10,097 nucleotides of DNA, taken from assembly GCA_913044155.1 (NCBI GenBank), contig CAJWNF010000012.1:1-10097 (forward strand), written 5' to 3'. Of this stretch, positions 8 through 10,097 are shown piece by piece. Within the stretch, counting starts at the first letter, position 1. Each line of letters begins with the position of its first letter. The notes under the pieces are model-generated. The model was given only the letters and a program-made list of their open reading frames with translations. It ran no database searches and was not told where the DNA came from. Source of the stretch: an uncultured Gammaproteobacteria bacterium (GTDB lineage: Bacteria; Pseudomonadota; Gammaproteobacteria; PS1; Thioglobaceae). Position numbers and translations under genes: made by a program.

Positions 8-109
8 TTAACTGAGTTTTCTAAATAATAAACCTACAACAAATGCACCGGATAAAAATATAGCGATACAAAATGCGGTCATAAATGTTGTATTGAATAG
101 TATGTCCAT
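8..109 (-). CDS. Small single-pass membrane protein, 33 aa, unknown function
   Basis: The reading frame starts at ATG 109-107 and stops at TAA 10-8. A purine-rich ribosome binding site, AAGGAAG, lies just upstream (118-112). The product begins MDILFNTTF and is almost entirely one hydrophobic helix (about residues 9-29), ending in the short basic tail RKLS. This is the size and shape of the tiny single-helix subunits that accompany respiratory oxidases, but I do not recognise the family and assign no function. It is the first gene behind an FNR-type promoter (303-344) and a structured leader. It could therefore be made under low oxygen together with the oxidase, or be the leading gene of an operon that continues outside the window. 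Reality as a gene is supported by the start, RBS and helix; with only 33 codons, chance cannot be excluded. Confidence 0.6.
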   Translation of the reverse strand: MDILFNTTFMTAFCIAIFLSGAFVVGLLFRKLS

Positions 110-302: not shown

Positions 303-344
303 ATTATTGCAAGATTAAATAATATGTGTCTTGATATAAATCAA
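303..344 (-). promoter_or_regulatory. FNR-type class II promoter facing the 33-aa gene
   Basis: Positions 331-344 read TTGATATAAATCAA, a perfect match to the FNR consensus TTGAT-N4-ATCAA. On the minus strand a -10 hexamer AATAAT (308-303, 5 of 6 to TATAAT) lies with its centre 32 bp from the box centre. That is the spacing expected when FNR sits at -41.5. The start would fall near 296. In the plus direction the corresponding position (CTCGGA) is no -10, so the promoter faces the small membrane protein and anything beyond the window edge. Confidence 0.75.
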
Positions 345-435: not shown

Positions 436-588
436 TTATTTATCGTCGCTTTCTTCATCGAAAAGAATTCTGTTAGCGGCGCCATCCAGATCTTCATATT
501 GGTTATTGTTGAGAGCCCAGAAAAATGCAATCAAACCAATCAAGCCGAGCGTCAATGCGATGGGAATGAGGTAAACTAACACATCCAT
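436..588 (-). CDS. ccoS: CcoS, cbb3 oxidase assembly protein (50 aa)
   Basis: ATG 588-586 overlaps the last base of the ccoI TAA (TAATG), so translation is probably coupled. The 50-residue product has one helix (about residues 4-25) and then the diagnostic CcoS signature: FFWAL, NNQYEDLDG at about 28-36, and an acidic tail with RILFDEE. In studied bacteria CcoS is needed to insert cofactors (hemes b and/or CuB) into CcoN; without it the oxidase assembles but is inactive. As last gene of the operon after ccoGHI it has its usual position. The length is normal for the family. Confidence 0.95.
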   Translation of the reverse strand: MDVLVYLIPIALTLGLIGLIAFFWALNNNQYEDLDGAANRILFDEESDDK

Positions 589-2903
589 TATAAACCCCTA
601 ATACGGTTTAATCGAAAGCTGTTCCCTATAACAACTAATGAAGAACTTGACATAGCGATGGCTGCTATTAGAGGAGTCACATAACCCATCACCGCTAAAG
701 GTATAGCACAAATATTGTACAAAACTGCAATCGTAAAGTTTTGCTTAATAAGTTTATTTGCCTTCAGAGCGACCTTCCATGACTGATATACAGGCGCCAG
801 CTTCTCTCCTTGAAAGACTATATCGGCAGTGTTTTGTGTTATATCTATTGCTGATGATGGAGACATTGAGACACTAGCTGATGACAAAGAAGGGGCGTCA
901 TTTAGCCCATCTCCAACCATCAATATCTTTCTTCCTTTTTCTCTCATTGAATCTATATATTTACATTTATCGACAGGCGAGAGAGAAGCAAAATAGGTTG
1001 AAATTCCAATGCTTTTTGCTACCTTATTTACTACTTGCTTTGTGTCGCCAGAAAGGAGCGCTGTCACCAAGCCAGCATCTTGCATCTTTCCAACCACCTC
1101 TTTTGCATCTGACCTAAGAGAGTCAATGAAATTAAAACACACTTTTTCACCATCTATATTGAGCCACAATTCAAGCGACTCTAGATCATTAATCGAGTCT
1201 TCGCCACACCATTGACGACTCCCAAGCTTCACCTCTTTGTCATCTAATAATGCCTGGACTCCCATCCCGGGGAATTCTTTCACTTTCTCTATACTAACTA
1301 ATTCTTTTGAGTAAGCATTAGAGATGGCCTTGGACAATGGGTGTTTACTGTTTACAGCAAGTGAAGCTGCAATCTGAAGTTGTCTATCATTGTATTGACC
1401 ATCTAGCAGTGTAGGAAGTCCTGTAGTCAATGTACCGGTCTTGTCTAAAACTACAAAGTCAATTCCGGCAAGCCTCTCTAGTGCATCTCCAGACTTTAAC
1501 AGGATACCGTTCTTAAAAAGTTTGCCTCGTGCAAGCACTTGTGTGACCGGGACTGCCAGACCAAGCGCACAAGGGCAAGTAATTATTAATACAGTAATAG
1601 CATTCAGTAGCGCTAACTGCCATGCCAATCCTAACAGCCACCAGCCCAAAAAAGTCATTAACCCCATAAAATGAACGATTGGTGTATAAAGCTGTGCAGC
1701 TTTATCAGCAATCCTGACAAAGTATGCCTGTGACTTTTCTGATTGCTCCATCAACTTTACTATATCTCCAAGGAGACTGGTATCACTGGACTTCGATGCA
1801 ATTATACGAATTGGCGCTGAAATATTAACCGTCCCGGCAAATACCCTGTCGTCCTCTTTGACGCTCTTGGGTATCGTCTCTCCTGTAATCAAACTAATAT
1901 CGAGTTCAGAAATGCCCCAGGACACTTTACCGTCTACAGGAACATTTTCACCAGCAGATACTAGTATTGTCATGCCTTCTTTTAGCTCACGTATTGGCAC
2001 AACCTTCTGTTTGCCATCCTTGAGGACTGTAGCGGTTCCCTGCAGCTTTGAGAGTAATTCTTGTGCAGACTCCTTTGCCTTGCCTTTTGCTCGCACATCA
2101 AGATAGCGCCCAATCAACAAAAAGAAGAGCAGCATAACTGCGGAATCAAAATAGATATGCTCGCCATGATTTAGTGTCTCAAAAACGCTCATCGCGCTTG
2201 CCAGAATTATTGCCAGAGAGATAGGCACATCCATATTGGTATGCCTTTTTTTCAAAATTGATATAGCTGAATAAAAGAACGGTCTACCTGCATACATGAT
2301 AGCTGGCAGCGCAATAACGATAGACACCCAATGTAAAAAGTCTTGCGTCGCGTTGCCCATTAATTTTGACTCTTCAGACCAAAGCCCTATAGAGATCATC
2401 ATCAAATTTCCCATTGCAAATCCTGCAACGGCAAGGCAGCGTAAAAGGTATTTTTCTTGGTCGTTTGAATGATCCTTTTTAGAGCCGCCAAAAGGGACCA
2501 AATCGTAGCCAAGATTTATGACGGCATTGGCCAAAATATCTCCATATTCCTTGGCGCCTTTCCATGAATATGTCAGTCTATCTGTTGACATATTGACTCT
2601 TGCGGATAATACCCCTTCATGCTCGTAGAGCCCTCTTTCGACCCTTTGTACACAAGCAGCGCAATGAATATTTTTTATCGACAGTGTTAGGCTATAGTGC
2701 CCAGCAGAGTCTTGCACGGCAAATACAGAGAAAAGGGGTTTCTGTTCCGGTGCCGCGCTTTTAGCCTCCTCAATATTTCCATAGGCCTCCTCACAGCCCG
2801 AACAACAGAATTTTTGTTCGGTCGATACAGGTGTATTGCAGTACAAACACCTTGCTAATTCACTATGATGCGCTTGCTTTGTTGGTATTTCTGTTGATTC
2901 CAT
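588..2903 (-). CDS. ccoI: CcoI/FixI copper-exporting P1B-type ATPase for cbb3 assembly
   Basis: Moves copper across the inner membrane for CuB insertion into CcoN. I place the start at ATG 2903 (771 aa); a GTG at 2927 would add 8 residues but deepens the overlap with ccoH from 49 to 73 nt. Numbering from ATG 2903: a cysteine-rich N-terminal metal-binding module (C19-x2-C22, then C33, C34 and C37); a heavy-metal-associated domain with HCAAC (C81, C84); TGE of the actuator domain (340-342); the CPC transport motif (443-445) in the sixth helix; DKTGTLT with phosphorylated D487; HP (521-522); GDGLND (664-669); and a YN pair (729-730) and MSSSS (751-755) in the last two helices, typical of Cu+-ATPases. 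All catalytic motifs are intact. The CcoI assignment rather than housekeeping CopA rests on the extra N-terminal module and the position between ccoH and ccoS. Confidence 0.95.
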   Translation of the reverse strand: MESTEIPTKQAHHSELARCLYCNTPVSTEQKFCCSGCEEAYGNIEEAKSAAPEQKPLFSVFAVQDSAGHYSLTLSIKNIHCAACVQRVERGLYEHEGVLSARVNMSTDRLTYSWKGAKEYGDILANAVINLGYDLVPFGGSKKDHSNDQEKYLLRCLAVAGFAMGNLMMISIGLWSEESKLMGNATQDFLHWVSIVIALPAIMYAGRPFFYSAISILKKRHTNMDVPISLAIILASAMSVFETLNHGEHIYFDSAVMLLFFLLIGRYLDVRAKGKAKESAQELLSKLQGTATVLKDGKQKVVPIRELKEGMTILVSAGENVPVDGKVSWGISELDISLITGETIPKSVKEDDRVFAGTVNISAPIRIIASKSSDTSLLGDIVKLMEQSEKSQAYFVRIADKAAQLYTPIVHFMGLMTFLGWWLLGLAWQLALLNAITVLIITCPCALGLAVPVTQVLARGKLFKNGILLKSGDALERLAGIDFVVLDKTGTLTTGLPTLLDGQYNDRQLQIAASLAVNSKHPLSKAISNAYSKELVSIEKVKEFPGMGVQALLDDKEVKLGSRQWCGEDSINDLESLELWLNIDGEKVCFNFIDSLRSDAKEVVGKMQDAGLVTALLSGDTKQVVNKVAKSIGISTYFASLSPVDKCKYIDSMREKGRKILMVGDGLNDAPSLSSASVSMSPSSAIDITQNTADIVFQGEKLAPVYQSWKVALKANKLIKQNFTIAVLYNICAIPLAVMGYVTPLIAAIAMSSSSLVVIGNSFRLNRIRGL

Positions 2904-3328
2904 TCTGCTACCACTCTTATATCCCACTGCCCTTTTAAGGGAAAATTCACCGCATTATTCTCATAACTCCCTTCAGCATTATGATAAAGCAATACTTCAA
3001 AATCCAACCCTGATTTAGTAGCGCGAGAAATATGGGCAACAACTTTCGCTCCCACAATTGGCTGCCCTTGCTTGTCGTTTAGTTGAAAGAAAAGTGCAGG
3101 CTGAGTAAAACCTATATCTCCATTCCAGCCGAGCATCTCTTGTTGATCGTATGCAGTTATATACTGATTATAATTTAGCCCTTTTTGGTAAGCGTTTTCG
3201 GTAACAACACCGCTATGAGTTGTTGTAGCAAGGTAAACAAAGATGCCGTCCATTATTGCTATAAACACAAAAAAGGCGACAAAATATAGCGGAATTATTC
3301 TATCTCTTTTTGCCATATCACTATACAT
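2855..3328 (-). CDS. ccoH: CcoH/FixH, cbb3 oxidase assembly protein
   Basis: A 157-residue protein with a basic N-terminus (KRDR), one transmembrane helix at about residues 11-34 and a periplasmic domain of about 120 residues. The family hallmark just after the helix is visible: ENAYQKGLNYNQ. The C-terminal half (LLYHNAEGSYE ... GQWDIRVVAEW) fits the FixH fold. CcoH is a stable assembly partner of the oxidase and interacts with CcoN. ATG 3328 overlaps the ccoG stop by one base (TAATG), implying coupling. A second in-frame ATG at 3316 is possible; neither has a clear RBS. The 3' end overlaps ccoI by 49 nt. Confidence 0.93.
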   Translation of the reverse strand: MYSDMAKRDRIIPLYFVAFFVFIAIMDGIFVYLATTTHSGVVTENAYQKGLNYNQYITAYDQQEMLGWNGDIGFTQPALFFQLNDKQGQPIVGAKVVAHISRATKSGLDFEVLLYHNAEGSYENNAVNFPLKGQWDIRVVAEWNQQKYQQSKRIIVN

Positions 3329-4740
3329 TATTCTGTCCCGCTCACAAATATACTATCCTTCTGCTTTTTGATTTTGGTTTTGACATCCTCAACATAAAAA
3401 GTGAAATTTTGGCGCAACTTTTTTTGTCTATAAGATGTCAAAAATACACGAAAATGGCCGACACTATCAGCAAATACTTTCAAATTGTCGATTCTCATAA
3501 TTCCAGCGCCCGCAACCCGTATTTCTACTTTATCTAGCCCGGAAACACTAAGCGCATAACTCTTATCTTCATGAGTCTTGTTGAGAATTTTAATATCGTA
3601 GCCGTTACGAATTTTGTGGGCAGTAAGCTGCACAAACATTGGGTTGCGGTCGTGCAATACGTGGAGTTCTATAGGGGAACGAGAGGCCAGCCCGTACAAC
3701 ATAATGGTGGTAGCTATAAGAAGAATAGATATGTAGTAAGTTGTTCTTTTTCGTAATATATGGACACTTTCTTCTATATGTTTTTCACGTAATTTGTGCT
3801 TTAGCTCGGTATCATAGCGGACCAATCCATGAGGCAAACTTAGCTTGTCCATTACATTATTACATGCGTCGATGCACATCCCGCAAGCGATACATTCCAT
3901 CTGCAGGCCGTTTCTAATATCAATCCCGGCTGGGCATACATGGACACAAATTTTACAATCTACACAATGTCCTCTGCCTTCCCAACTTGCCCCTTTTTTG
4001 TAGGCGCTTCTTGGTTCGCCACGAAACTCGTCATAACATATAATCAACGATTCCTCATCGAACATTGCTGACTGAAAACGGGCATAAGGACACATATAAT
4101 TACAGACCTGTTCGCGGCCAAAACCAGCCAACAAATAGGTACTGCCGGTGAGCGCCACAATCCAGCCAGTGACTGACCATGGAACATCGAAGTTGAGTAT
4201 CTGAGACATCAGAGTAGGCGCGTCATTATAATAAAAAACCCATGCGCCCCCGGTAATTAGTCCGATAAAAATCCAGGTTAGATGGGTAGCCAACTTACGC
4301 CAAAATTTATTAAAGCTAAAACTCGACTGGTCGAGCTGCATTCTTTTTTGACGGTCGCCCTGAAAGATTCTCTCAACCCAAACGAACAAATCGGTCCAGA
4401 CCGTCTGCGGACATATATAGCCACACCAGGCTCGGCCAAAAAGACTAGTAACTAAAAAAAGACCTACCGCAGCAATAATCAAAAGGCCTGTAATATAGTA
4501 AACCTCTTGAGGCCATATTTCGATAAAGAAAAAGTAGCCCCTACTGTTAGGGATGTCTAGCAGTATTGCTTGGTCTGGTGCATTTAATCCACGATCCCAC
4601 CTAATCCAGGGAGCAAAATAATAAATCCCCAAAGTGATGAACATTATCAACCATTTTATTTTGCGGTATTTACCCCAGACTCGTTTTGGATAAATTTTTT
4701 GCTGCTTCTCAAAAAGCTTGATTTTATTATCGCTAGGCAA
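3328..4740 (-). CDS. ccoG: CcoG/RdxA/FixG, membrane iron-sulfur protein (cupric reductase)
   Basis: A 470-residue polyferredoxin-like membrane protein. Helices are visible at about 31-46, 81-99, 153-171, 188-207 and 335-352. Two intramembrane C-x3-C-P motifs (C106/C110 and C213/C217) precede two cytoplasmic 4Fe-4S clusters: C259-x2-C262-x2-C265-x3-C269-P, and C283-x2-C286-x2-C289-x3-C293. The C-terminal 110 residues form a beta-rich periplasmic domain. CcoG has been shown in other bacteria to reduce Cu(II) to Cu(I) for oxidase assembly. The start is TTG 4740, two bases after the ccoP stop, with GGTGAG (4751-4746) 5 nt upstream. The first in-frame ATG is codon 33 and would cut off the conserved basic IYPKRVWGKYRKIKW segment, so TTG is preferred. 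Confidence 0.95.
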   Translation of the reverse strand: MPSDNKIKLFEKQQKIYPKRVWGKYRKIKWLIMFITLGIYYFAPWIRWDRGLNAPDQAILLDIPNSRGYFFFIEIWPQEVYYITGLLIIAAVGLFLVTSLFGRAWCGYICPQTVWTDLFVWVERIFQGDRQKRMQLDQSSFSFNKFWRKLATHLTWIFIGLITGGAWVFYYNDAPTLMSQILNFDVPWSVTGWIVALTGSTYLLAGFGREQVCNYMCPYARFQSAMFDEESLIICYDEFRGEPRSAYKKGASWEGRGHCVDCKICVHVCPAGIDIRNGLQMECIACGMCIDACNNVMDKLSLPHGLVRYDTELKHKLREKHIEESVHILRKRTTYYISILLIATTIMLYGLASRSPIELHVLHDRNPMFVQLTAHKIRNGYDIKILNKTHEDKSYALSVSGLDKVEIRVAGAGIMRIDNLKVFADSVGHFRVFLTSYRQKKLRQNFTFYVEDVKTKIKKQKDSIFVSGTE

Positions 4741-4742
4741 AC

Positions 4743-5624
4743 TTACTCACCGCCACCCAGAGAGTGCACGTAAACAGCGAGCTGCCTTATTGTTGCGTCA
4801 TCCAAACGACCTTCCCAAGATGGCATAACGCCATGCTGTGGGTTTTCAATTTGGCTAACTATCCCTGGATTGCTGTCCTCAACATGCAACCAAATGCTGT
4901 CGGAAATGTTGGCAGCTCCTAGACTTGTGTTGCCAATTCCATCCTTACCATGACAATACAAACACATCTGTTCGTAGCTTGTTTTTCCTTCCGCTGTATA
5001 GCGATATCCCTTCGATAAGCTCAGTATATATGCAGCAATTTTTTTCATTGCCTCTTCATCAAGTATACCTTTAAATGCGGGCATTGTAGAGCTTCGAGTG
5101 TTTGGGTTGTCGGCACGAATACCATGCTTTATCGTTAGATAAATGTTGTCTATCGAGCCTCCCCACAACCAATCGTCATCGTTCAAATTAGGGTACCCTT
5201 TAGCGCCGCCGGCACCACTTCCATGGCATCCCGCACAATTTTCCTTGAAAGCTGATTTGCCTCCTACTACTGCAAACGCGTAGAGCTTTTGATTATTCAA
5301 AATATCCTCGATTGAGGTTTTTTGAAATTGCGCTAGGTTTTCTGCACGACGAGAAAATATTTCATTTTGGCTCTCTTCTAGCTGCTTGTACTGATTCCAC
5401 TCGATGCTACCTTTGGTGCCTCCACGAAAACCATCACCTGAAAGTGTTGGCCATGCAGGATAGACATACCAATAACCGATAGCCCAAACAATTGTAGCTA
5501 TAAATAACCACACCCACCAACGCGGCGAAGGGTTGTTTAATTCTTTAATGCCGTCCCATTCATGGCCTGTTGTTTCTATACCGGTGTGTTCATCAATGTT
5601 TTTATTGTTATCGTTTGGGACCAT
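4743..5624 (-). CDS. ccoP: CcoP, di-heme cytochrome c subunit of cbb3 oxidase
   Basis: Receives electrons from soluble cytochromes c and passes them to CcoO. The 293-residue protein has an N-terminal cytoplasmic segment, one helix (about 36-56: WWVWLFIATIVWAIGYWYVY) and two periplasmic cytochrome c domains. Heme sites are CAGCH (C130, C133, H134) with axial M181 (STMPAF), and CLYCH (C221, C224, H225) with axial M267 (GVMPSW). I chose ATG 5624, because GGAGG (5635-5631) lies exactly 6 nt upstream. A TTG at 5639 in the same frame would add MWRIL but places the RBS inside the gene. Starts 17 nt inside ccoQ. Confidence 0.96.
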   Translation of the reverse strand: MVPNDNNKNIDEHTGIETTGHEWDGIKELNNPSPRWWVWLFIATIVWAIGYWYVYPAWPTLSGDGFRGGTKGSIEWNQYKQLEESQNEIFSRRAENLAQFQKTSIEDILNNQKLYAFAVVGGKSAFKENCAGCHGSGAGGAKGYPNLNDDDWLWGGSIDNIYLTIKHGIRADNPNTRSSTMPAFKGILDEEAMKKIAAYILSLSKGYRYTAEGKTSYEQMCLYCHGKDGIGNTSLGAANISDSIWLHVEDSNPGIVSQIENPQHGVMPSWEGRLDDATIRQLAVYVHSLGGGE

Positions 5625-5772
5625 CAGAATCCTCCACAATAGGTATATATTTATATGACTCTATGGTTTTCTTTTGGCTCGGACGAAAAGCCCAAAACAC
5701 AACCCCAACGAAAACACTAACAAAGAATAACAGCCCAATTAGTCCAGCATTTGCATGTGTTAAATCAATCAT
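5608..5772 (-). CDS. ccoQ: CcoQ, small single-helix subunit of cbb3 oxidase
   Basis: ATG 5772 overlaps the ccoO TGA (ATGA), and the frame ends at TAA 5610-5608 inside ccoP, giving 54 residues. One helix (about 9-29) is followed by the typical CcoQ segment [14 protein letters not shown] and a charged tail. CcoQ stabilises association of CcoP with the CcoNO core in other bacteria. No separate RBS is obvious, which fits translational coupling to ccoO. The last 17 nt are shared with ccoP in another frame. Its position between ccoO and ccoP is the canonical one. Confidence 0.92.
5631..5635 (-). promoter_or_regulatory. Ribosome binding site of ccoP
   Basis: GGAGG lies inside the 3' end of ccoQ, 6 nt before ATG 5624. 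It is the strongest Shine-Dalgarno sequence in the operon and decides the ccoP start against the upstream TTG at 5639. Confidence 0.85.
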
Positions 5773-6515
5773 TCTGAGCTCGCATCTTTTGTTAAAACAT
5801 CTGGATCATAATCCTTGAGTTCGGCCATAGTTCCAAGAACTTGAAGATAAGCAATAATTGCGTCTAATTCAGATACAACGCCTTCTTTGCCATCAAAGTC
5901 TCGAATATTTGTGTTTTTGCCATAACGCTCCATTAAGCCGGCTTCGCTGTCGCTATTTCCTTCATGGGCTTGGGCCATAGCATCGCTATAGGCATTTTCA
6001 ATCATTGCATCTGTATACGGAACACCTACAACTTTAAGGGCCTCCAAATGCGCCGCGATATCATCAAGCTTAGCATCTCTTTTTGCCATAGTGCTATAGC
6101 GCGGCATAATCGACTCGGGGACATACTCTTGTGGGTCAATCATGTGACCAACATGCCAGCTGTCCGAATATTTGCCACCAACACGAGCTAGGTCTGGGCC
6201 TGTTCTCTTTGAACCCCATTGAAAGGGATGGTCATACATACTTTCTGCCGCCAATGAGTAGTGCCCATAACGCTCTACCTCGTCTCTTAGTGGCCTAATT
6301 TGCTGGCTATGGCAACCGTAACAACCTTCTCGAATGTAAATATCCTGCCCTGCTAACTCCAACGGCGTATACGGTCTAATCCCCTTTACTGGCTCAATTG
6401 TTGTTTCCAATCGGAAAAGCGGCACAATCTCAACCAGCCCACCTATAGAAATAGCAATAACAGTAAAAATCAACAACAAGATTGAGTTTTTTTCAAGCTT
6501 TTTATGATTTAACAC
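5769..6515 (-). CDS. ccoO: CcoO, mono-heme cytochrome c subunit of cbb3 oxidase
   Basis: Carries electrons from CcoP to CcoN. The 248-residue protein has an N-terminal membrane anchor (about 11-31), the heme c site CYGCH (C65, C68, H69) within [12 protein letters not shown], and axial M137 in [23 protein letters not shown] (100-116) is a CcoO hallmark. The start is GTG 6515, since the frame is closed upstream by TGA at 6539-6537. GGAG (6527-6524) lies 8 nt before it. An ATG at 6529 or 6520 opens only a tiny frame ending TAA that overlaps the start. Length is slightly longer than the roughly 200-residue forms because of a loop around 165-205. Confidence 0.96.
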
Positions 6516-6532: not shown

Positions 6533-7948
6533 TTATTCAACTTGTGTGCTTTCTTCATCAACCATAATAGTCTTCCAGATGTTGTAGACCATAATCAGAG
6601 CGCCACCTAGGAATAAAGCACCTCCAAGCGCGCGGATAATATAGAACGGGTGCATAGCCATTACGGTTTCTACGAATGAATACTCCAAAAAACCTAGACT
6701 GTCATAACTCCGCCACATCAACCCTTGCATAACTCCAGCAATCCACATTGCTGAAATATAAAAAACGATTCCAATTGTGGCAATCCACAAATGCATATTT
6801 ACTAGTTTTAATGAATATAATTCTTTCTTTTTCCAGAGCACAGGAACTAGATGATAAATAGCGCCAAAACTTATAAAGGCAACCCAACCTAAGGCTCCAG
6901 AGTGAACATGGCCAATCGTCCACTCAGTGTAATGACTCAGAGCATTTACCTCTTTGATTGCCATTATAGGGCCCTCAAAAGTACTCATGCCATAAAAGGC
7001 TAGAGAGATAATCAAGAACTTTAGAACTGGATCTTCGCGCAGTTTATGCCATGCACCTGAGAGTGTCATTAGGCCGTTAATCATTCCACCCCAACTTGGC
7101 ATCCACAATATAATCGAAAAAGTCATCCCCAGAGTTTGGGCCCAATCAGGGAGCGCTGTATAGTGAAGATGGTGTGGCCCTGCCCAGATATAAATAAATA
7201 TTAATGACCAGAAATGTATGATCGAGAGTCGATATGAATAAACTGGTCGGTTAGCACGCTTTGGCACAAAATAATACATAATCCCTAAAAATCCTGCAGT
7301 GAGAAAAAATCCTACCGCATTATGGCCATACCACCACTGAATCAAAGCATTCTGTACACCTCCCCATAGCGGGTAGCTTTTTAGACTTGTTAACGATACC
7401 GGAACCGAAATACCATTCACTATATGAAGAATTGCCACGGTCGCAATAAAAGCCAAAAAGAACCAATTTGCAACATAGATATGAGGCTCTTTTCTCCTTG
7501 ACAGTGTCATCAAAAAAACAACAAGATAAACAACCCAAACAATGGCCAACCATAAATCGGCATACCACTCTGGCTCTGCGTACTCTTTACCCTGTGTTAC
7601 GCCAAACACGTAACCAAGAGCGGCCATTACAATAAATGCTTGATACCCCCAAAATGTAAAGTTGGCAAGACTATCTCCCCATAACCTTGCCCGACATGTT
7701 CTTTGAACGACAAAATAACTTGTCGCAAACAAGACATTGCCTCCAAAAGCAAAGATTACCGCCGATGTGTGAAGTGGTCTTAGTCTGCCGAAGGTAAAAT
7801 ATGGTTCAAAATTTAACCATGGAAATGCCATCTGAAGAGCAATATATAGCCCAACCAGAAAACCTACTATTGCCCAAAAAACCGATGCAATTGTAAATTT
7901 TTTTACGATTGATTCGTTGTATTCTGGTATTGCCAATGCCTCAGTCAT
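6533..7948 (-). CDS. ccoN: CcoN, catalytic subunit I of cbb3-type cytochrome c oxidase
   Basis: Reduces oxygen to water at the heme b3-CuB centre while pumping protons; very high oxygen affinity is typical of the family. The 471-residue, roughly 12-helix protein has all expected ligands: H60 (low-spin heme b, RPLHTSAV), H209 (CuB, WWYGHN), Y253 (the position of the helix VII tyrosine cross-linked to a CuB histidine), H259-H260 (CuB, GPHHLHY), E325 (STFEGP), H347 (heme b3) and H349 (heme b) in [10 protein letters not shown]. Numbering is within two residues of the crystallised Pseudomonas stutzeri enzyme. ATG 7948 has AGGA 8 nt upstream. It is the first gene of the cco operon, behind a long leader and an FNR-type promoter in the divergent gap. 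Confidence 0.98.
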
Positions 7949-8177: not shown

Positions 8178-8219
8178 ATTATCACAAACAAATAAAATGT
8201 TTTTCTTGATATAGGTCAA
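8178..8219 (-). promoter_or_regulatory. FNR-type class II promoter for the cco operon
   Basis: TTGATATAGGTCAA (8206-8219) matches the FNR consensus except for one base of the second half-site. On the minus strand, GATAAT (8183-8178, 5 of 6 to TATAAT) lies 32 bp centre to centre, placing the box at -41.5. The start would be near 8171, giving a leader of about 223 nt before ccoN. In the plus direction the same distance gives GATAGG, a poor -10, so the box primarily serves ccoN. FNR-type control of cbb3 operons (FnrL, FixK, ANR) is well established. Confidence 0.75.
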
Positions 8220-8389: not shown

Positions 8390-9115
8390 ATGAATTCTAA
8401 ATCCAATAATGTCCATCAACCCCTTGATTTCTTGTCTGGGTTGGCGCTATTTGATAACCTCCAAGACCAAGAAATTGAATCAATCTTTTCTTTAATGAAA
8501 GTGAAAAATTACCGAAAAGGAGAGATATTCTCGATTGATCTTGATAACCGGCCTAGACTCTATATAACCTATGACGGCCAGTTTAAACTGACAAAAGTCA
8601 ATGAACGTGGTGATGAAATGATTTTAAGAGTGGTAAGCAAAGGAGAGGTTATCTCACCAATGCATTTTTCGCACTATTACGACGTTTCCGCTGAATTTGT
8701 AAAACATACCACTCTGTTCTACCTTTCTGAAGATAAAGTCAATGAACTGATTAAAAGCAGTCCCTTGTTTGCAAAAAATATCATCAATATGCTGGCTGAA
8801 AGCATTCAGTCTCTTATGATGACGGCAGAGGTGTGGCGTTTAAAAAATACCAAGGAAAGATTGGGCTGGTTTTTGGCTTCCGTTAATACCAATAATTTAG
8901 GTAAGTTGCCAATATCCAAATCACTGCTTGCCTCCTATCTAGGGATGACACCAGAGTCACTTTCAAGAGCATTGAGAAAACTAAAAAATGAAGGTATTTC
9001 GATTGAGAACAAAACCATCAAAATGCAAACTGGAAATGAGCTTTGTTCTTACTGTGATAAAGTTATAGGTTCTAACTGTGATCTTTTTGGCTCTAAAGAT
9101 TGCCCACTGTTCTAA
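8390..9115 (+). CDS. CRP/FNR-family transcription regulator with C-terminal cysteine cluster
   Basis: The 241-residue protein has a cyclic-nucleotide-type beta barrel (about 18-112), a dimerisation helix (about 116-155) and a helix-turn-helix (about 155-210). The recognition helix TPESLSRALRKLKNEG carries E189, S192 and R193, matching the E-xx-S-R of E. coli FNR that reads TTGAT; three such boxes lie in this window. Unlike E. coli FNR it has no N-terminal cysteines and none at the mid-barrel position. All four cysteines are at the C-terminus (C219, C222, C230, C238: C-X2-C-X7-C-X7-C), ending DCPLF. Bacillus subtilis Fnr holds its 4Fe-4S cluster through C-terminal cysteines, so an oxygen- or NO-sensitive cluster here is plausible but unproven. 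ATG 8390 has no clear RBS, and an in-frame TAG closes the frame 9 nt upstream. Transcribed divergently from ccoN; narK follows. Confidence 0.88.
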   Translation: MNSKSNNVHQPLDFLSGLALFDNLQDQEIESIFSLMKVKNYRKGEIFSIDLDNRPRLYITYDGQFKLTKVNERGDEMILRVVSKGEVISPMHFSHYYDVSAEFVKHTTLFYLSEDKVNELIKSSPLFAKNIINMLAESIQSLMMTAEVWRLKNTKERLGWFLASVNTNNLGKLPISKSLLASYLGMTPESLSRALRKLKNEGISIENKTIKMQTGNELCSYCDKVIGSNCDLFGSKDCPLF

Positions 9116-9142: not shown

Positions 9143-9184
9143 TTGATATAAATCAAAGATAAAAATCTCCTTAATAAACATAAT
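9143..9184 (+). promoter_or_regulatory. FNR-type class II promoter for the narK-like gene
   Basis: TTGATATAAATCAA (9143-9156) is a perfect FNR consensus and identical to the box at 331-344. CATAAT (9179-9184, 5 of 6 to TATAAT) lies 32 bp centre to centre, putting the box at -41.5. A start near 9191 would leave an untranslated leader of about 27 nt. The E. coli narK promoter has the same FNR arrangement. Confidence 0.85.
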
Positions 9185-9217: not shown

Positions 9218-10097
9218 ATGTTTACAACGAAAAAAGCGCAAGCCAACTCGGTATTGACCGCCAATACATTTGCATTCACGTCATGTTTTGCAATATGGGT
9301 TATGTTTTCAATTATTGGCATCCCCATAAAAGATCTTCTAGATTTGTCTGAAACCCAATTTGGATTATTAGTAGCAACACCAATTTTGACCGGCTCATTA
9401 TTAAGACTGCCAGTAGGAATGTTATGCGACAAGTTGGGGGGTCGCATAGTTTTTTTCTGCTTGATGCTCTCGATTATTCTCCCTTTGTGGTTTATTGGTG
9501 ATGCAACAAAATATTGGCAATTTTTATTACTTGGACTTTTTGTTGGTGTTGCAGGAGCAGCCTTTTCTGTTGGCATTGCCTATACATCTAAATGGTTTGA
9601 CGATGACAGACAAGGATTTGCGATGGGTGTTTTTGGTGCCGGCAACGCTGGCGCCGCACTTACTAAATTCATAGCGCCCTCCTTGGTTATTGCCTATGGT
9701 TGGGAGATGGTGCCCAGAGTTTATGCCGTTAGCATGATTGTTGTTGTGTTCCTCTACTGGATGTTTACCTATGAAGATCCACACCATAGAGTGTCCTCAA
9801 AAGTAACTTTCAAAGACCAACTAAGTTTATTAAGGGACCCCAAGATATGGAAATATATGCAGTATTACTCGTTGGTCTTTGGCGGATTTGTTGCGCTATC
9901 TCTATGGATGACAAAATATTATATTAACGAGTATGGCTTTGAGTTAAAAACCGCAGCCCTTATGGCTTCAATATTTGTATTGCCTTCGGGCGTTATTCGT
10001 GCGCTGGGCGGTTGGTTTTCTGATAAACATGGGGCTTATAAAGTTACCTGGTGGGTAATGTGGATTTCATTGGGGTGTTTGTTTTTCATGTCATACC
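9218..10097 (+). CDS. narK: NarK-family nitrate/nitrite transporter (MFS), 5' part
   Basis: The first 293 residues of a major facilitator of the nitrate-nitrite porter family, cut by the window end. Substrate-binding arginines expected from E. coli NarK (R89, R305) are present as R63 in helix 2 (GSLLRLPVG) and R261 in helix 8 (GVIRALGGW). The nitrate signature is seen at 138-149 (VFGAGNAGAALT), and the MFS loop GMLCDKLGGR follows helix 2. Helices continue to the edge, at least eight or nine of an expected 12. It imports nitrate and/or exports nitrite for anaerobic nitrate reduction; narGHJI genes often follow but lie outside. ATG 9218 is the first possible start (an in-frame TAA lies 6 nt upstream) and lacks a good RBS. 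The FNR promoter directly upstream supports anaerobic induction. Subtype is not resolvable from the fragment. Confidence 0.92.
   Translation, partial: MFTTKKAQANSVLTANTFAFTSCFAIWVMFSIIGIPIKDLLDLSETQFGLLVATPILTGSLLRLPVGMLCDKLGGRIVFFCLMLSIILPLWFIGDATKYWQFLLLGLFVGVAGAAFSVGIAYTSKWFDDDRQGFAMGVFGAGNAGAALTKFIAPSLVIAYGWEMVPRVYAVSMIVVVFLYWMFTYEDPHHRVSSKVTFKDQLSLLRDPKIWKYMQYYSLVFGGFVALSLWMTKYYINEYGFELKTAALMASIFVLPSGVIRALGGWFSDKHGAYKVTWWVMWISLGCLFFMSY

Follow-up and report, generated by a model that had tools for sequence, protein, structure and literature searches.

A family of proteobacterial Crp/Fnr regulators with a conserved four-cysteine tail and a possible Fe-S sensor site behind the DNA-binding domain

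What does a Crp/Fnr regulator sense when its only cysteines lie behind its DNA-binding domain, and is such a protein an oddity of one genome or a member of a family? The question is raised by a gene in the window (the whole stretch of 10,097 nucleotides that we analysed), which sits between a leftward ccoNOP-ccoG-(ccoH position)-ccoI-ccoS array and a rightward narK-type gene (Table 1). Oxygen-minimum zones are often dominated by SUP05 bacteria, a group linked to denitrification (PMC10927645, PMC4616170), and how nitrate respiration is switched on in these bacteria is directly relevant to nitrogen loss from the sea. The proteins described here, which we call C4 proteins after the four cysteines of their tail, are a candidate for such a switch, with both operators and target genes.

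Table 1. Position and basis of the features of the window
Feature	Position	Strand	Basis
ccoS (FixS), 50 aa	436..588	-	PF03597
ccoI-type copper P-type ATPase	588..2927	-	TIGR01511/TIGR01525
157-aa ORF at ccoH position, named by position only	2855..3328	-	no NCBIfam match
ccoG	3328..4740	-	TIGR02745
ccoP	4743..5639	-	TIGR00782
ccoO	5769..6515	-	TIGR00781
ccoN, cbb3 oxidase subunit I	6533..7948	-	TIGR00780
Crp/Fnr regulator, C4-tail family, 241 aa	8390..9115	+	ORF, Pfam
cNMP_binding (beta-roll) domain, residues 39-123	8504..8758	+	Pfam PF00027
HTH_Crp_2 DNA-binding domain, residues 157-207, with E189/S192/R193	8858..9010	+	Pfam PF13545
C-terminal tail, residues 217-241, C219-X2-C222-X7-C230-X7-C238	9038..9112	+	alignments, AlphaFold
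narK-type transporter (MFS), runs off the window	9218..10096	+	MFS_1; NarK family TIGR00886 best, 185 bits, below cut-off 311.7
Perfect FNR-type box, downstream of ccoS and upstream of the 33-aa peptide ORF	331..344	.	
FNR-type box with a single mismatch (TTGATATAGGTCAA), lying between ccoN and the regulator gene	8206..8219	.	pattern search
Perfect FNR-type box, just past the regulator stop codon, 62 bases before the narK-type gene	9143..9156	.	

The regulator, its tail and its relatives

The window protein belongs to the Crp/Fnr superfamily, since PF00027 (cNMP_binding, E 5e-8) is followed by PF13545 (HTH_Crp_2, E 8e-10), both above their Pfam cut-offs, and since its fold matches those of FNR and CRP in a structure comparison that covers mainly residues 8-225 and barely includes the tail. 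A first-pass annotation, made from the letters of the window, had described its cysteines as confined to a C-terminal C-X2-C-X7-C-X7-C cluster, and positions 219, 222, 230 and 238 are indeed the only ones. It had also pointed to E189, S192 and R193, which we take, by comparison with E. coli FNR, to be the residues that read TTGA; all three are invariant in our alignments A1, A2 and A3. The NCBIfam Fnr subfamily model NF008365 gives 30.3 bits for this protein against a cut-off of 228, and the cysteine arrangement of classical E. coli-type FNR is absent, with 0 cysteines before residue 219 and no conservation of cysteines outside the tail among the relatives. The FtrB equivalog model PRK09392 (NCBIfam) gives 84.9 bits (E 5e-24), below its cut-off of 211, and the Bacillus-type C-terminal pattern C-X2-C-X4-C differs in both spacing and number from the four cysteines found here.

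A protein search with the window protein returned 78 relatives, 61 of them close (P0002-P0062) and 17 remote (P0063-P0079). All four cysteines were found at identical spacing in 59 of the 61 close relatives, the exceptions (P0051 and P0061) being sequences that stop or diverge ahead of the tail. Because of this constancy the tail is not a product of chance; at the cysteine rate of untailed relatives, the probability of four or more cysteines in 30 residues is about 8e-4 per protein. The remote relatives, which are of FtrB/Dnr type, all lack the tail (17/17). It was present again in 16 of the 30 proteins (P0081-P0096) from a second search started with an alphaproteobacterial relative, and in six of the 34 new proteins from a third search with a mixed alignment. 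In a 23-row alignment, whose rows were picked for having the tail and are as little as 24% identical to the window protein, 15 columns are invariant: G63, K66, E76, N130, G159, K177, L184, E189, S192, R193, L218, C219, C222, C230 and C238.

A less biased test than this alignment is a tree of 135 proteins computed from residues 12-205 only, with the tail columns excluded (156 input rows, 102 from loci and 54 hand-picked from the searches, of which 21 were dropped as short or duplicate). In this tree, made by a quick method and containing several long branches, the 72 tailed proteins and the protein L089 form one group (SH-aLRT 96). Its nearest neighbours are FtrB/Dnr-type proteins without a tail, and the FNR proteins with N-terminal cysteines (N-Cys FNR) of SUP05 genomes lie far from it. 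The possibility that the window protein is a stray variant of E. coli-type FNR is ruled out by the model scores and the tree, and the possibility that the tail is a peculiarity of the window clade is ruled out by the tailed relatives beyond that clade and, again, by the tree. Judged by its sequences, the C4 tail is the hallmark of a family with members in the Thioglobaceae (SUP05) and in nine or more genomes of Alphaproteobacteria. The first-pass annotation had proposed an alignment of homologs as a check, and this came out in its favour: conservation of the four cysteines is specific to a clade without a conserved N-terminal set.

Two departures from the pattern were seen. In a natural variant (L089/L117), encoded beside narK-type and narGH genes, a tyrosine replaces the second tail cysteine and an extra cysteine stands three residues ahead of the first. 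In L094, L100 and P0113, three proteins that cluster with support close to the C4 clade, the C terminus carries another motif, C-X2-C-X5-C, possibly a second C-terminal metal site.

The tail is also predicted to be ordered. A first AlphaFold model based on 23 rows left its end uncertain (pLDDT 71, 54 and 46 in the last blocks), and an alignment of 59 rows raised these values to block means of 88, 85 and 84 over residues 211-240, with 66 for the last residue. The structure prediction that the annotation had called for thus places a probably ordered tail after the DNA-binding domain. A profile of the tail had no match among PDB sequences at E values up to 10, which leaves room for a structural relative, and the spacing is therefore not tied to any known Fe-S site.

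Genomes and neighbouring genes

The 18 genome loci come mostly from SUP05/Thioglobus/Ruthturnera and gammaproteobacterial assemblies, plus one alphaproteobacterium (L018). Among 83 genomes of the family to which G002 belongs, 18 carry a full-length standalone C4 gene, nine a copy fused to an N-terminal NIT domain and two both, which makes 25 in all; these genome sets were written by hand from search hits, broken copies in G047, G048, G050, G051 and G053 were left out, and the nine fusions include one whose NIT and C4 parts lie in separate frames (G063) and one cut by a contig end (G058). The broken copies belong to small genomes, and the stretch that matched has stop codons or only short frames; the start of narG also lies in a short frame in G047, G050 and G053. 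Among 385 genomes in an alphaproteobacterial sample, 112 had matches to A2 at E <= 1e-20, and the best 30 loci held nine C4 genes (one of them L018 again, as L083), one variant and 20 genes without the tail, so that nine is a lower bound for these 112 genomes. In a gammaproteobacterial sample, 11 of 369 genomes matched at E <= 1e-40, namely G002 and ten others, and the loci of those ten lack the tail.

The C4 gene goes together with nitrate respiration. narG (PF14710) was found in 20 of the 25 genomes with a C4 gene as against 8 of the 58 others (Fisher p ~1e-8, only a guide since the genomes are related and partly draft), and in all nine Thioglobaceae genomes with a NIT-C4 fusion. Five of the 18 genomes that carry an unfused full-length gene gave a match to neither narG nor napA. 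Ten of these 18 have no HTH_Crp_2 match at E <= 1e-6 other than the C4 protein. One of the ten, G010, is titled complete and has narG, and here the C4 protein is the sole Crp/Fnr above the HTH cut-off, next to a weak sub-cut-off HTH match that the Crp/Fnr profile missed. Seven other genomes hold an N-Cys FNR besides the C4 gene, so that FNR boxes there may serve the N-Cys FNR, and where both proteins occur they may share boxes.

The mapped neighbours tell which processes the C4 proteins might control. We call narK-type those genes for which the NarK family model was best or nearly so, yet below its cut-off (185-262 bits versus 311.7); the moeA-type gene of L115 also scores below the MoeA cut-off. 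In the window clade (L001-L003), the C4 gene occurs with two narK-type genes and narGHJI, the narG of L002 scoring above the equivalog cut-off, and with divergent cco genes in the window and in L002. In SUP05, where one copy per neighbouring gene was named by a model and the others by BLAST cluster, the C4 gene is divergent from hemN at nine loci (L004, L006, L007, L008, L011 and L013-L016) and lies near napGHAB at four (L009, L010, L012 and L017), and second C4 copies follow nrdD (L008 and L015). In Alphaproteobacteria, narK-type and narG genes adjoin L113, L115, L117, L119 and L120, with nrdD at L115, L117 and L120 and moeA-type genes at L113 and L115, and L114 adjoins ccoNOPG. Altogether, narK/nar, nrdD, moeA-type or cco genes were found at 6 of the 9 mapped alphaproteobacterial loci, variant included, and no respiratory neighbour was found in the mapped stretch at L116, L118 and L121. 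G069 holds two C4 genes. The C4 copy of L074 is divergent from nirK (TIGR02376, above cut-off), that of L075 adjoins a multicopper-oxidase gene, and nnrS occurs at the L120 locus.

An ORF for a 33-aa membrane peptide at the left end of the window (8-109, minus strand) is conserved at L002:1757-1852 (62.5%) and at L074:6432-6530 (54.5%), where it lies just after nirK and near the C4 gene. No box with up to one mismatch was found near the L002 copy, at L002:1501-2400. Rfam gave no match in the window.

Candidate operators and NIT fusions

The annotation had listed three operators in the window, and all three are real, two of them perfect and one with a single mismatch (Table 1); the latter, TTGATATAGGTCAA, is also found upstream of the regulator copy of L001. 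Two perfect TTGAT-N4-ATCAA boxes were observed versus 0.04 expected, and two boxes appeared in 0 of 200 shuffles. When as many as two mismatches are tolerated, the window shows no clear excess (16 observed versus 10.9 expected; 14 of 200 shuffles had as many).

The enrichment extends to the family. In the regions up to 350 bases ahead of 33 C4 or variant genes, we counted 11 perfect boxes versus 0.04 in shuffles and 21 boxes with up to one mismatch versus 1.2; at least one such box with up to one mismatch precedes 20 of the 33 genes, and none precedes the other 13. The density of perfect boxes is 0.96 per kb upstream versus 0.057 per kb in the remainder of the same loci, a 17-fold difference. 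Genome-wide, perfect boxes compare with a reversed-pattern control as 11 to 1 in G001, 14 to 3 in G002, 24 to 3 in G010 and 20 to 3 in G069, and as 3 to 3 in G003, where there is no excess. Many of them lie inside ORFs (6 of 11 in G001, 9 of 14 in G002, 2 of 3 in G003 and 16 of 24 in G010) and may be there by chance; outside ORFs of at least 90 aa there are 5 in G001, 5 in G002, 1 in G003 and 8 in G010. Intergenic perfect boxes precede hemN, a narK-type gene and the gene of a B12-binding protein in G001 and G002 (Pfam on the G002 copy), and ccoN and a ccoG-like gene in G010. The E-x2-S-R motif in the recognition helix, together with the enrichment of TTGAT-N4-ATCAA at target genes, predicts binding of FNR-type specificity, and both neighbours and boxes fit an anaerobic regulator and to that extent support the annotation's interpretation.

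A subset of the family carries a second candidate sensor. PF08376, the NIT domain, matches above cut-off before the Crp/Fnr part in nine scanned fusions (L018, with E 2.6e-38, L022, L033, L063, L066, L067, L084, P0081 and P0086), of which L084, P0081 and P0086 are truncated at the N terminus and match only the later part of the model. Both Q-x-E-R and G-x-E-R are kept in all eight full-length fusions (L018, L022, L033 and L063-L067), and the truncated ones show G-x-E-R (P0081 and P0086) or G-R-Q-R (L084). These motifs align with Q-x-x-R and G-x-x-R of NasR (4akk), which PMC8199190 gives as its nitrate-binding motifs. Domain and motifs together predict nitrate sensing by the fused relatives. 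Among the nine Thioglobaceae fusions, eight adjoin a narK-type gene and the contig of the ninth (L069) is too short; narG lies in the fetched stretch of five and otherwise elsewhere in the genome, and three have a mogA-type gene. The L018 fusion adjoins a narK-type gene as well. Two long gammaproteobacterial Crp/Fnr proteins, L160 and L162, have no NIT domain in Pfam. Ahead of two fusions, GTGAT-N4-ATCAC palindromes were found and no TTGAT boxes (L063, -30, and L033, -76 from the NIT-C4 start), perhaps a shifted operator.

What the tail may sense, and known systems

Most likely, the four-cysteine site behind the helix-turn-helix holds an Fe-S cluster labile to O2 (or to NO), through which anaerobic nitrate respiration is activated. 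We are led to an Fe-S sensor in the tail by the FNR-type DNA specificity, the FNR-type targets, the lack of N-terminal ligands and the conserved four-cysteine site after the helix-turn-helix; the conserved cysteines and the predicted order of the tail are consistent with an Fe-S cluster protein. On balance we favour, with some reserve, an FNR-like transcription factor that senses through a [4Fe-4S] cluster of this kind, placed directly after the helix-turn-helix. In the mechanism that we infer, a cluster kept intact by the absence of oxygen would order the tail against the DNA-binding domain and would be lost on contact with O2 (or NO). A dimer with intact clusters would bind TTGAT-N4-ATCAA boxes and activate the genes of nitrate uptake and respiration (narK-type, narGHJI and nap) as well as cbb3 oxidase, hemN and nrdD. 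In the fused subset, the NIT domain would add nitrate sensing, and one protein could then need both low oxygen and nitrate.

Instead, the cysteines might bind zinc (Cys4) in a structural role, as a stabiliser of the DNA-binding domain. Any sensing would then be done elsewhere, for example by a beta-roll that detects NO or a small ligand, as in Dnr-like proteins. We consider this reading unlikely, though worth weighing: zinc would suit four invariant, closely spaced cysteines no less than Fe-S would, the tail is ordered in the AlphaFold prediction even with no cofactor included, and the nearest neighbours of the clade are tailless FtrB/Dnr-type proteins. However, the tail is precisely what sets the clade apart from these relatives, and the C4 protein is the sole Crp/Fnr found in more than half of the 18 genomes, beside FNR-type genes, where a sensor of O2 or NO would be expected.

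Alternatively, an Fe-S cluster in the tail may sense NO and not O2, the protein then reporting ongoing nitrate or nitrite reduction. This we judge rather improbable: hemN, cbb3 oxidase, nap and nrdD are targets of O2-type FNR and lie beside the gene, and neither nor nor hmp is among the annotated neighbours (a subset of all neighbours). Yet the link to nitrate reduction is strong, nirK, the multicopper-oxidase gene and nnrS at the loci named above fit NO sensing, and the corynebacterial ArnR, a [4Fe-4S] regulator of narKGHJI, responds to NO and not to O2 (PMC12343034). A metal-free thiol-disulfide switch, which close cysteines could form and which has a parallel in PrfA, a Crp/Fnr protein with redox-active cysteines (PMC12937710), is very improbable, since all four cysteines keep their spacing across two classes and two would suffice for a disulfide. 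The annotation had also considered a CP-motif heme; as a family feature this is disfavoured, Cys-Pro being unconserved (a proline follows the fourth cysteine in 38 of the 82 distinct tails).

Returning to the Fe-S reading, the chances seem to us about even for the following view: the C4 proteins are a separate proteobacterial family of anaerobic regulators; their Fe-S site had a single origin behind the DNA-binding domain in a Dnr/FtrB-like lineage, unrelated to the site of classical FNR; they replaced FNR as the only Crp/Fnr in some lineages; and their NIT-fused branch integrates O2 (or NO) and nitrate for nitrate uptake and narGHJI. If true, the family could be used to learn how DNA binding is controlled by a cluster behind the helix-turn-helix, and each fusion would be a nitrate regulator that reads two signals in a single protein.

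In the open-licence literature, with subscription journals mostly outside its coverage, we found no account of the C4 tail or of NIT-Crp/Fnr fusions; what we did not find described there are the ligand pattern, the proteobacterial clade, the role as sole Crp/Fnr and the NIT-Crp/Fnr-C4 architecture. crp-fnr genes ahead of nirK-cbb3 regions are noted in SAR11 (PMC12816887). A Crp/Fnr protein with a C-terminal cluster is already known: like the C4 proteins, Fnr of B. subtilis and B. cereus has a cysteine-rich C-terminal extension, which there binds the cluster and works without a dimer-monomer change (PMC12937710 and PMC3520743), and the annotation went too far in expecting signal transmission in a new way. 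The C4 family is set apart by the published description of the Bacillus ligands, three cysteines (C-X2-C-X4-C) and an aspartate elsewhere, D141 in B. subtilis (PMC3520743), as against four cysteines in C-X2-C-X7-C-X7-C in Proteobacteria. In FNR of E. coli and Aliivibrio fischeri, by contrast, the cysteines are N-terminal plus one central, whereas those of C4 proteins follow the helix-turn-helix, and the FtrB/Dnr-type proteins are the nearest sequence relatives yet have no tail. Paracoccus NarR is likewise a proteobacterial Crp/Fnr regulator of narGHJI tied to nitrate or nitrite, but NarR is described as having no [4Fe-4S] cluster (PMC8139620). NasR (NIT-ANTAR), finally, resembles the C4 fusions in its one-component design with the NIT nitrate domain at the N terminus, and they conserve its ligand arginine motifs; its output is an RNA-binding ANTAR domain (PMC8199190), whereas that of the fusions is a Crp/Fnr DNA-binding domain.
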